NCBI RefSeq assembly: GCF_016107685.1
Contig: NZ_JABASY010000001.1
Location: 462,187-526,186, forward strand
Length of the DNA stretch: 64,000 bases
Reading direction: 5' to 3'
Source of the DNA: Brevibacterium yomogidense
GTDB taxonomy: Bacteria > Actinomycetota > Actinomycetes > Actinomycetales > Brevibacteriaceae
The notes below the pieces were generated by a model, which was not told the DNA's origin, searched no databases, and saw nothing but the letters and a program-made list of their open reading frames with translations. Shown in pieces: positions 24,698 through 55,310 of this stretch (position 1 is its first letter; each line of letters starts with the position of its first letter). The position numbers and the translations under genes are program-made.

Positions 24698-26029
24698 GTG
24701 AGCGCAGACGGTCGGTACGCGCGGCAGCTGCAGGTCCCCGGAGTGGGCGCGGAGGGCCAGGCGCGACTGGGGGCCGCGCGTGTGCTGCTGGTGGGCGCCG
24801 GCGGCCTGGGCAGCCCGGCGGGTCTGTACCTCGCGGCAGCGGGGATCGGGACGATCGGGATCGTCGACGACGACCGTGTCGAGCGCAGCAACCTCCACCG
24901 GCAGATCGTCCACAGGACGGACGACGAGGGCAGGCTCAAGGTCGAGTCCGCCGCCGATGCCCTGCGCGCGCTCAACCCCGAGGTGACGGTCGTGACCCAC
25001 ACCGTGCGGCTCACCGCGGACACGGTCATGGACGTGGTCGACGGGTACGACGTGGTGGTCGACGGTGCGGATTCGTTCGCCACCCGCTACGTGGTGTCCG
25101 ACGCGTGCACCCTCCTGGACATCCCCCACGTGTGGGCCGCCGTCCTCACCGACGGCGGGCAGCTGAGCGTCTTCCACGGGTCGAAGGGCCCCGTGTACCG
25201 CGACCTCCTGCCGGTCATGCCACCAGCGGGTTCGGTGCCCAGCTGCGCGGTGGCCGGAGTGCTGGGCACAGTGCCGGGCGTGCTGGGGACAGCGATGGCC
25301 GGGGAGGTGCTCAAGCTGGTGCTGGGCATCGGGCGGCCAGCGATCGGACGAGTGCTCGTCTACGACATGCTCACCGCCGAATGGGAGACCGTGCCGCTCG
25401 CGCGCTCGCCCCACGTGGAGCGGCCGCGCGTCGCTGCCGATGTGGGGCGCGGCGTGCCGCAGCAGGTGAACGTGGCGGAACTGGCGCGCGTGGTGGGCGT
25501 GGAGGGGGGCACGGCCGGTGGCGATCGCGCGGCCGGTGTCAGCAGCGCCGATGCCGCTGCGGGTGCCGATGCCGATGCGGGTGCCGCTGCGGGTGCCGAT
25601 CGACGAGACACCGCACTCCGGTCCGAAACACCGGCGCAGACCGCGGTGTCTCGAACCAGTGGACGGTCTCTCGCGGAACGGTCTGCCGTGCGCTCACTCG
25701 TCGTGGACGTCCGCACCCCCGCCGAGGCCGCCGCGGGGATGATTCCCGGCGCTCGCCTCCTGCCGATCGACCGGATCGAGGAGGAGCCCGAGGCCGCACT
25801 TTCGGTGTTGCGGGAGTGGTCACAGGAATCGACGGAGCCGGTCGATGTGTACCTGCATTGCCAGGCAGGATCGCGGTCGGCGAGGGCGCAGGAAGTGCTC
25901 GGTCGATTCGTCGATCATGACGCTGGGCTGCGGCTGCATGATCTTGCCGGTGGCTACGAAGCGTGGATCCGAGAGTTCCCGAACGACGTCACCCACGAGG
26001 GGGAGGACGGCAGCACCTCCGGACGCTGA
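24698..26029 (+). CDS. moeB: ThiF/MoeB-type adenylyltransferase with C-terminal rhodanese domain
   Basis: A 443-residue protein. The N-terminal E1-like domain (about 5-245) has the nucleotide motif GAGGLGSPAGLYLAAAGIG, DDDRVERSNLHRQ and SCAVAGVLG (candidate catalytic Cys). The C-terminal rhodanese domain (about 330-430) has active loop CQAGSRSAR. Together they would adenylylate and sulfurate the MoaD C-terminus. Odd points: the paired CxxC zinc ligands of E. coli MoeB are absent (GPVYRDLLP where MoeB has CYRCLFP). The linker is Ala/Asp-rich and contains a palindromic repeat element (25602-25676). GTG start with ACAGGAG upstream. ThiS or another sulfur carrier could also be a partner. Confidence 0.9.
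   Translation: MSADGRYARQLQVPGVGAEGQARLGAARVLLVGAGGLGSPAGLYLAAAGIGTIGIVDDDRVERSNLHRQIVHRTDDEGRLKVESAADALRALNPEVTVVTHTVRLTADTVMDVVDGYDVVVDGADSFATRYVVSDACTLLDIPHVWAAVLTDGGQLSVFHGSKGPVYRDLLPVMPPAGSVPSCAVAGVLGTVPGVLGTAMAGEVLKLVLGIGRPAIGRVLVYDMLTAEWETVPLARSPHVERPRVAADVGRGVPQQVNVAELARVVGVEGGTAGGDRAAGVSSADAAAGADADAGAAAGADRRDTALRSETPAQTAVSRTSGRSLAERSAVRSLVVDVRTPAEAAAGMIPGARLLPIDRIEEEPEAALSVLREWSQESTEPVDVYLHCQAGSRSARAQEVLGRFVDHDAGLRLHDLAGGYEAWIREFPNDVTHEGEDGSTSGR
25602..25676. repeat. palindromic repeat element, copy B, inside the MoeB-rhodanese coding sequence
   Basis: The left arm starts ACGAGACACCGCACTCCGGT (from 25603) and is imperfectly complementary to the right arm ending near 25676. It aligns base for base over most of its length with the intergenic element at 54359-54432, sharing ACGAGACACCGC, CTCCGGT and the GAACC segment. 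Here it is translated in frame as part of the interdomain linker (about 25 residues beginning RRDTALRSE). Confidence 0.8.
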
Positions 26030-41442: not shown

Positions 41443-41534
41443 TTGACTGCGCGATTTCGCTGCTGAGTGCATCGTTTTCAGCAGTGAAACACTGCTGAAA
41501 ACGATGCAGTCAAAAACGAAAACGATGCAGTCAA
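41443..41534. repeat. 19-bp perfect hairpin plus repeated 17-mer between selD and tRNA-Sec
   Basis: TGCATCGTTTTCAGCAGTG (41468-41486) and its exact complement (41490-41508) flank AAA. The 17-mer GAAAACGATGCAGTCAA occurs twice in tandem (41497-41513, 41518-41534), and an inverted TTGACTGC lies at 41443-41450. The cluster sits in the divergent control region of the selenium genes. It could be a multi-site operator, a terminator, or a mobile palindrome. Confidence 0.8.
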
Positions 41535-54074: not shown

Positions 54075-54317
54075 GTGTCCTCAGCGGATGCGGAGACGCG
54101 GGGCGTATCCGTCGAGGTGCTGTCCGACGCGACCGGCGCCATCAATTTCACGAACGCACAGGGGGATGTTCCGGCCCAGCAGGTGCACGAGACGATCATG
54201 ACCCTGCTGAACTCCAACTTCGCGTCAGTCGCCGACACCGCCACCTGGCTGGCGGCCGTGACGGCCGGCGAAGCACTGGAGGGCAGCAACCTCGTCGCTT
54301 CCGCGTTGGGCGCCTGA
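54075..54317 (+). CDS. hypothetical 80-residue protein, possibly a gene remnant
   Basis: The frame from GTG 54075 to TGA 54315-54317 has strong GC-rich third positions, so it looks genuinely coding. The product contains VEVLSDATGAINFTNAQGDVPAQ and a predicted helical C-terminus (AVTAGEALEGSNLVASALGA). No family is recognised. There is no clear ribosome site, and codon bias fades upstream, so it may be the preserved 3' part of a longer gene. The palindromic repeat element lies 42 bases downstream. Confidence 0.45.
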   Translation: MSSADAETRGVSVEVLSDATGAINFTNAQGDVPAQQVHETIMTLLNSNFASVADTATWLAAVTAGEALEGSNLVASALGA

Positions 54318-54358
54318 GCACCTCCGGCAGTCGATCGTTCCGCCCGCCGAGGGGCGAT

Positions 54359-54432
54359 CACGAGACACCGCGCTCCGGTTCGAGACCACCCCGCAGGCAG
54401 CGTGGTGTCGAACCTGAGAGCGGTGTCTCGTG
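54359..54432. repeat. palindromic repeat element, copy A (intergenic)
   Basis: A 74-base inverted repeat: the left arm CACGAGACACCGCGCTCCGG… is complementary to the right arm ending GAGCGGTGTCTCGTG, 29 bases per arm with about three mismatches and a loop of about 15 bases. It is homologous to the copy inside the MoeB-rhodanese gene (25602-25676). It could fold into a long hairpin and act as a terminator, but its recurrence inside a coding sequence argues for a dispersed repeat. Confidence 0.85.
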
Positions 54433-54557
54433 GCGGTGGGGCGTGACAGGATCGGGGAGGTCGGTCGGGCGCCACCCGGGCGACGTGGGGGTCGGCACTG
54501 GATGTAGGTGCTGGCCCTGAAATGTGAGGAATCGGCCTCCGGGGTGAGGGAGGAACC

Positions 54558-55310
54558 ATGAGCACACGCATCATCGTCATCGAGCACGAGGACGGGACGG
54601 ACGTCCGCCGGCTGGGGCGCTGGCTGGAGGCCGCCGGGGCGCAGCTCGACGTCCGTCGTCCCTACCGCGAGGCGAAAGCCTGTGGCGCTGTCGATGCAGA
54701 CGCGGCGCTCGCCCACATCCCCACACTGGACGAGCTGCGCGAGCCGGGTGTGGGGCTCATCGTGCTGGGTGGTCAGGACGGGCCCGTCGACGATGAGCGG
54801 AACCCCTGGTTCCCGGCAGTGCGCGAACTGCTGGCCGCATCCGCCGCCGGTGAGTTCACGAGCCTCAACGTGTGCCTGGGTGGCGAGATGCTCGCCGAGG
54901 CCCTGGGGCGCCCCGTCGTCCACCGCGACGTCCCGCAGGTGGGCCTCATGACCGGGCATCGGCGAGCCGAGGCGGCGGACGACCCGCTCTTCTCGCGTGC
55001 CCCCGCGGAGTTCCCCGTGGTCCTGTGGCACGGCCTGCAGATGGAGCTGCCGGAGGGCGCGGTGCACCTGGTCGACGGGACGGATGCCCCTGTGCAGGCG
55101 TTCCGGGTGGGCCGTGCGTGGGGCACGCAGTTCCACCTCGAGGCCGACGGAGCGCTGGTGCGCGGGTGGGCGAAGAAGGGCGAATCGCTGCCGGACGGCC
55201 TCACCGTGGACGAGGTCGTGGCCCCGGTCGTGGAGGCGGAGCCGGAACTCGAGACCGCGATGACACCCGTCGCCCACGCGTTCGCGGAACTGCTGGCCGC
55301 GGAGCACTGA
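54558..55310 (+). CDS. class I glutamine amidotransferase-like protein
   Basis: A 250-residue GATase1-fold protein. The oxyanion/nucleophile strand reads NVCLGGEMLAEALG with Cys near residue 112. The catalytic His-Glu pair sits in WGTQFHLEAD. The nucleophile elbow is CLGGE rather than the common C.G.Q. It is free-standing with no synthase next to it. This resembles the GMP-synthase-like or gamma-glutamyl hydrolase type proteins used in amide transfer or thiol/amine catabolism. GGGAGGAACC precedes ATG 54558. Confidence 0.87.
   Translation: MSTRIIVIEHEDGTDVRRLGRWLEAAGAQLDVRRPYREAKACGAVDADAALAHIPTLDELREPGVGLIVLGGQDGPVDDERNPWFPAVRELLAASAAGEFTSLNVCLGGEMLAEALGRPVVHRDVPQVGLMTGHRRAEAADDPLFSRAPAEFPVVLWHGLQMELPEGAVHLVDGTDAPVQAFRVGRAWGTQFHLEADGALVRGWAKKGESLPDGLTVDEVVAPVVEAEPELETAMTPVAHAFAELLAAEH

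Follow-up and report, generated by a model that had tools for sequence, protein, structure and literature searches.

A translated stretch inside a MoeB-type gene of Brevibacterium belongs to a family of dispersed palindromes of about 73 bp. We think it probable that these palindromes form a partnership of the REP/RAYT kind with an unrelated partner gene, AbiEi-like in one part and nuclease-like in another, which is the candidate mobiliser. Among palindromes known to have a partner enzyme, those of REP/RAYT pairs are the most familiar. The evidence starts from two copies of one element in the window, that is, in the whole stretch of 64,000 nucleotides analysed here (Table 1).

Table 1. Coordinates of the palindromes and genes discussed; positions without a contig name are those of the window
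Feature	Position	Strand	Located in	Details
ThiF/MoeB-rhodanese fusion gene, 443 aa	24698..26029	+	window	ORF and Pfam; ThiF residues 7-236, rhodanese residues 332-425
Genic palindrome copy	25602..25674	+	window	covariance model span; 25 residues, translated as RRDTALRSETPAQTAVSRTSGRSLA
Intergenic copy of the same element	54359..54432		window	arms 36 nt, 86% complementary
Third long palindrome, different sequence	41452..41524		window	partial second copy at C12:283017, 89% over 62 of 73 bases
Intact family gene, 369 aa	C17:209-1315		own genome	GAGACACCGC-type palindrome upstream, C17:1540-1612
Second family gene	C10:532366-533331		own genome	open frame of 353 codons; both sides framed by a different palindrome type

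The palindrome within the MoeB-rhodanese gene

The initial annotation had claimed that the intergenic palindrome has a homologue within the coding sequence of the ThiF/MoeB-rhodanese fusion, and this held. The two copies matched at 55 of 73 ungapped positions (75% identical), and a BLAST search of the own genome with the 74-base intergenic query found the genic copy with E = 3.8e-8. When the intergenic palindrome was slid ungapped over both strands of the window, the four best places gave 73, 61, 55 and 51 matches of 73. By their BLAST identities, two of these four were the intergenic palindrome in its two orientations and two were the genic copy, likewise in both; all other places, on either strand, gave at most 37 of 73. 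The span of the genic copy was fixed by a covariance model built from six copies, both window copies included.

The genic copy is read in frame as part of the interdomain linker, as had been annotated. The reading frame stays open across the element, which lies between the ThiF and rhodanese matches, and a low-complexity Ala/Gly/Asp stretch just before it makes up much of the long linker. The hairpin of the genic copy (-33.2 kcal/mol, z -2.65) was equalled by 2 of 200 shuffles, while the intergenic copy folded far better (-54.9 kcal/mol, z -9.1) and was equalled by 0 of 200. Because the genic hairpin is weaker than the intergenic one but better than most shuffles, its arms have drifted yet still pair, in line with the third point of the annotation. 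We class the genic stretch as a translated REP-like palindrome.

Among named genomes, the MoeB nearest to that of the window is the one of B. yomogidense (72%), and the host was assigned to Brevibacterium by this match. A ThiF homologue was found at E up to 1e-60 in all 57 genomes of the genus, some of these homologues being paralogues. The MoeB linker, counted by hand from a conserved Gln to the VDVR motif, was 78 residues long in the own genome, 62 in G055 and 79 in G015, and 17 in both G037 and G038; the G055 linker was the same protein stretch as in B. yomogidense, and that of G037 the same as in B. senegalense. With a covariance model that includes the own-genome MoeB copy, the element scored 27.8 bits in the G055 linker and 27.6 bits in that of G015 (E about 5e-6 over 26 kb), and the model found nothing comparable in the short linkers of G037 and G038. 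The long linker went with the element in the five species compared, which is the outcome that the annotation had anticipated for relatives.

The three MoeB copies share one reading frame (by eye) and are mutually only 40-55% identical. Each was closer to dispersed copies of its own genome, the best of which were 76% identical to it here, 70% in G055 and 83% in G015. Dispersed copies of other genomes reached up to 68% with the MoeB copy here and up to 76% with that of G015 (in G055, G038 and G013). In view of the higher identity to own-genome dispersed copies than between MoeB copies, we rejected plain vertical inheritance of the insertion, and likewise one old insertion that simply drifted. 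Because the MoeB copies resemble the dispersed copies of their own genomes more, it would appear either that different palindromes entered one permissive linker independently or that the current type replaced an old one; the data fit both. A parallel is described for Xanthomonas (PMC3733652), where different REPs occupy about the same recB site in two species.

Translated copies were also found in unrelated genes, so that the list comprises MoeB in three species, an amidohydrolase in two, an ABC permease-ATPase linker in one and the C-terminus of an EamA transporter in one. The amidohydrolase gene of G055 carries 25 residues of the element, and its G015 counterpart has a related stretch; by eye, the counterpart of the own genome has a loop of similar look, and those of G003 and G042 have a short loop. 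The ABC permease-ATPase fusion of G015 holds an element in its interdomain linker. The same fusion has a shorter linker without the element in the own genome, and a shorter linker with about 20 bases resembling one arm in G055 (both by eye). The EamA transporter gene of the own genome terminates within an element.

Dispersed copies and the structure of their arms

A genome search for further copies, which had been set beforehand as a test of the annotation, gave 12 near-full copies in the own genome (covariance model, E below 0.001). Across the genus, 30 of the 57 genomes, the own genome included, had matches at E up to 0.01 under strict filters. Eight of the 12 near-full copies lay on C10 (1.07 Mb) and none on C11, C12 and C14 (about 1.74 of 3.7 Mb); the own-genome copies thus appear to be concentrated in one region of the chromosome. 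Copies at the end of C2 (L128), at the end of C13 (L131), on C15 (L130) and at the start of C17 (L004) were disrupted by a sequence whose ends resemble GATGTCTCAGTACATAATTGACAACTAGGTCTCAAGACATAGTTGAC and which is situated near contig ends. This interrupter is probably an insertion sequence that targets the palindromes.

We compared 83 copies from six genomes: 12 from the own genome, 17 from G055, 13 from G015, 12 from G037, 14 from G038 and 15 from G013. The set includes the MoeB copies of G055 and G015 and leaves out a stretch of 33 nt at G038:C30:255-287. Arm covariation scored 0.461, where shuffles gave 0.175 and slid partners did not exceed 0.146, and 91.4% of cells paired; this was for 90 distinct rows from 47 loci, rows that are dependent because most elements appear on both strands, in an alignment fitted to the model. 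Changes on both sides were seen in 16 of 22 pairs against a shuffle mean of 14.0, a weak measure that 28 of 500 shuffles reached.

By eye, a motif occurs twice per arm, and the version favoured depends on the genome: GAGACACCGC in the own genome, GAGGGACGGG in G015 and CGACACGCC in G037 and G013. G055 has GAAACACCGG plus two other types, and G038 has two types (also by eye). Among 76 unique palindromes flanking AbiEi/DUF559-like genes, which are described below, the self-match of the arms peaked at an offset of 19 nt (0.467, shuffled 0.265; z 12.8) and was raised less strongly at 20 nt (z 3.2). Each arm tends to hold the motif twice, 19-20 bp apart, which gives four similar sites per element. 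In the window, CGAGACACCGC had four exact occurrences, all within the two elements, and scattered single motifs of the kind seen in DNA-uptake signals were rejected on this ground. A known RNA family was also rejected, as an Rfam search of 54200-54600 gave three matches, all under their gathering scores.

The third long palindrome of the window is possibly one of another type. Palindromes from beside other AbiEi/DUF559-like genes also recur within their genomes, in numbers that are lower bounds, since 40 candidates were scored per genome. The palindrome type at L312 accounts for most of the rows listed in G041, G003 and G029 and is nearly identical among the three. It consists of ACCCGACGGCGGCCCAGCAACC and its mirror, and occurs in many places in each of these genomes.

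A gene family framed by palindromes

Comparing the neighbours of the copies brought out one protein family whose gene stands between palindromes in G055 and G015 and lies beside one here. The family, which is AbiEi/DUF559-like, was found in 51 of the 57 genus genomes at E up to 1e-25, and relatives were picked up by a ten-member profile in 210 of the 296 class genomes searched. Two family genes of the own genome passed the E threshold, and four did so with the wider ten-member profile. The gene on C17 has a 37-bp remnant on its downstream side (C17:61-97), and so counts as framed on one side only when at least 50 bp are demanded; the gene on C10 is located about 6 kb past the window. The intergenic element of the window adjoins a glutamine amidotransferase gene (54558-55310), whose G055 counterpart (L220) adjoins, at its other end, a complete palindrome-nuclease-palindrome unit.

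The family protein appears, from profile matches that are weak for the second part, to have two parts: an AbiEi-like part followed by a DUF559/Vsr-type, PD-(D/E)XK-like part. PADLOC models of AbiEi matched the middle region in four of four proteins, with best E of 2e-14 to 8e-9. The C-terminal part matched the Pfam models DUF559 and MTES_1575 weakly, in some members and mostly under the cut-off; DUF559 matched in 3 of 10 proteins, with a best E of 2e-6. Against the PDB, the ten-member profile retrieved an 'endonuclease-like protein' (3hrl, E 0.017) and a 'mobile intron protein' (3r3p, E 0.46), the latter a Vsr-type homing enzyme. Ribosomal S20 chains appeared in the same list at 0.43-0.62, so the 3r3p match is near noise; a single-protein search of the PDB gave one match, at E 1, and an NCBIfam search of the family gave none. 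E198, D234, E245 and K251 were invariant in the 10 rows of alignment A3, alongside weak profile support for a nuclease. Near the protein start, C26, C27 and C42 were invariant and H47 nearly so in an alignment of 50 Brevibacterium proteins (A2), which is suggestive of a metal site in the Brevibacterium branch; the four outside relatives in A3 were without the CC pair.

We counted a gene as framed if a palindrome of at least 50 bp, above a fixed score, lay within 400 bp of it. Palindromes were found on any side at 46 of 70 family loci and on both sides at 21, and 24 loci had none by this definition. Among 30 MoeB control loci, one had a palindrome on any side and none on both, and shuffled flanks gave palindromes in 0 of 140. 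Five of the loci L296-L301 were chosen because a palindrome match beside them was already known; without L296-L301, 40 of 64 loci had a palindrome on any side and 17 on both. Between species many of the framed loci are related, and they do not count as independent cases.

The palindromes are of gene-specific types. An upstream palindrome ranked the downstream one of its own gene first in 29 of 32 doubly framed genes (21 in the genus set, 11 added by later searches), with a mean score of 0.71 compared with 0.15 between genes. The exceptions were L318 and L319, which tie mutually, and L325, which prefers the palindrome of its near copy L330. When ranked from downstream to upstream, the own partner came first in 21 of 21 genus genes, with ties allowed.

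Framing is not an oddity of the genus, as it recurs outside Brevibacterium in the order and in the class. A search of 248 genomes of the order gave relatives in seven further genomes outside the genus; on a looser reading (up to 900 bp away, at least 40 bp long), four of these had palindromes on both sides and one on a single side, and two had none. For the best loci of the class that had full flanks (26, after 4 of 30 were dropped for short flanks), palindromes within 500 bp were found on the left in 10, on the right in 14 and on both sides in 8. The 59 control loci, all of at least 6600 bases, gave 1, 3 and 0, respectively. L367 and L368 of the class set had already been met in the order search.

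One reading of these arrangements is that the protein acts on its own, as an AbiEi-type regulator or defence protein, with the adjacent palindromes as its operators and the dispersed copies as regulon sites or decoys. The AbiEi profile matches of the family suit it, as do upstream palindromes whose ends lie about 20-200 bp ahead of the protein match, and AbiEi proteins autoregulate through inverted repeats (PMC7319586). However, palindromes were about equally common on the two sides (34 of 70 loci downstream and 33 upstream), and the dispersed copies sat between convergent genes far more than between divergent ones (44 and 4, respectively, of 64 copies placed between two predicted genes). No AbiEii (DUF1814) toxin was found in the 10 neighbours scanned with Pfam, nine of them downstream and one, at L382, upstream. 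Copies within coding sequence are also hard to reconcile with operators. Because downstream palindromes are as frequent as upstream ones, copies occur at 3' ends and in genes, and no AbiEii was found in those neighbours, a pure operator role is less likely, and we regard this reading as unlikely.

Placement, movement and comparison with known systems

The remaining 16 of the 64 placed copies lay between genes on the same strand, and 19 of the 83 copies were left unplaced, 10 of them in or overlapping a gene and 9 at an edge. Other gaps of at least 60 bp were convergent in 7 of 39 cases in the same loci and in 5 of 29 in the window. Many sites are common to G013 and G038; without G013, the counts were 35 convergent, 14 same strand and 3 divergent. 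This bias towards convergent gaps fits a terminator role as well as a mobile one, and together with the strong folding of the palindromes it speaks for a second reading, in which they are bidirectional transcription terminators only, nearby ones would be alike through local duplication, and the gene family would play no part. Yet in several families of the class, genes of this one family stand between matching palindromes, which control genes hardly ever do, some copies lie within genes, and distant copies of one genome share sequence. We consider the terminator-only reading quite improbable.

Elements were present in one species and absent from another at aligned sites. At L212 the element is in G055 and absent in G015, and at L228 it is in G055 and absent in both G015 and the own genome, with aligned flanks in each case; the linker at L229 is a third such case, with a possible remnant in G055. 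Because the stretch missing in relatives often exceeds the element, exact ends of insertion could not be assigned; the presence/absence sites compared between species showed no target duplication. At some sites the palindrome is kept in two species (L225/L233 and L217/L204). No mobilisation was seen in the genomes compared. A Y1 transposase was rejected as the mover, as PF01797 was found in none of the 57 genomes by a search that was positive in 5 of 14 control genomes. That the elements are MITE-like and moved by another transposase of the genome is highly improbable: MITEs do look like palindromes with paired ends, and several elements are interrupted by sequences resembling insertion-sequence ends, but PF01797, the transposase family searched, was lacking throughout, and the interrupting sequence has other ends and seems, by eye, to target the elements.

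In the REP/RAYT-like partnership that we favour, palindromes would spread in Brevibacterium genomes and be kept where they do little harm, mainly in convergent gaps and sometimes in flexible linkers. By analogy, an AbiEi-type part joined to a nuclease part would make a plausible machine for finding and cutting palindromes. The motif repeats would be recognised by the AbiEi-like part, the nuclease would cut at or beside a palindrome, and repair would copy the palindrome into the break or into a new site. As a result, solo palindromes would spread, the current type would take the place of older ones, and a gene would diverge together with its palindromes as a pair. Association with the gene family, matching palindrome types, dispersal and differences between species are established by the data. 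Binding, cutting and copying of DNA by the partner protein, and hence its mobilisation of the palindromes, are steps that we infer. We are evenly divided on a broader claim, namely that this is an undescribed and widespread actinobacterial selfish DNA, in which an AbiEi-Vsr-like nuclease copies the four-site palindromes that frame it, in gene-specific 'dialects', with an origin separate from REP/RAYT and with repeated extension of proteins. No report of palindromes with DUF559 or AbiEi-type genes was found in open-licence PMC full text, a body that most subscription papers lie outside and that was judged by title and the start of the abstract.

If an unrelated nuclease has the same gene-and-palindrome anatomy, then this arrangement arose more than once. 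The partnership, if true, would offer a large new set of gene-palindrome pairs in which to test specificity change, and a possible role for the AbiEi/DUF559-like genes of those 210 class genomes. Translated palindromes would also be a concrete source for the long, variable linkers of actinobacterial fusion proteins.

The family shares weak C-terminal profile similarity (DUF559, MTES_1575) with Vsr-type and homing endonucleases, but here this part is joined to an AbiEi-like one and the gene is often framed by palindromes. The AbiEi-like region recalls the AbiEi antitoxins of type IV toxin-antitoxin systems, such as Rv2827c, which bind sets of inverted repeats (PMC7319586). Unlike these antitoxins, the family has an extra C-terminal nuclease-like part and palindromes both on its two sides and dispersed, and the 10 scanned neighbours were free of AbiEii.

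The initial annotation had also suggested an actinobacterial counterpart of the Rickettsia palindromic elements. The likeness stood, in that a dispersed palindrome has entered a gene and stays translated, and palindromes are translated inside several unrelated genes as in Rickettsia. Membership of that group was not supported in this comparison of described features, as the palindromes here have a candidate gene partner, unlike the RPE-type CGTC repeats, which are reported to be without a dedicated enzyme gene (PMC3733652). By eye, a CGTC end is present in some own-genome copies and not in the other sequence types.

REP/RAYT systems are the closest match. As described for them (PMC2817692, PMC3733652), the RAYT gene has a palindrome on either side, the palindromes vary along with the gene, and solo copies are dispersed; REPs also prefer unidirectional and convergent gene gaps, and copies occur inside genes. 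The elements described here resemble these REPtrons, as so described, in their dispersed palindromes, framed gene, co-varying types, preferred gaps and copies inside genes. They differ in having no Y1 (HUH) transposase (PF01797) in any genome of the genus set, and in being about 73 bp long with a motif twice per arm, whereas REPs are 20-40 bp long with a GTAG end; no common GTAG end was seen by eye in the palindromes listed by a search that required at least 50 bp. An enzyme gene framed by two cognate palindromes, the feature of REP/RAYT, occurs here with a different enzyme, at 21 of the 70 loci rather than at all genes. We class the system overall as REP-like, its partner gene being of a new kind, with an enzymatic action that is predicted.
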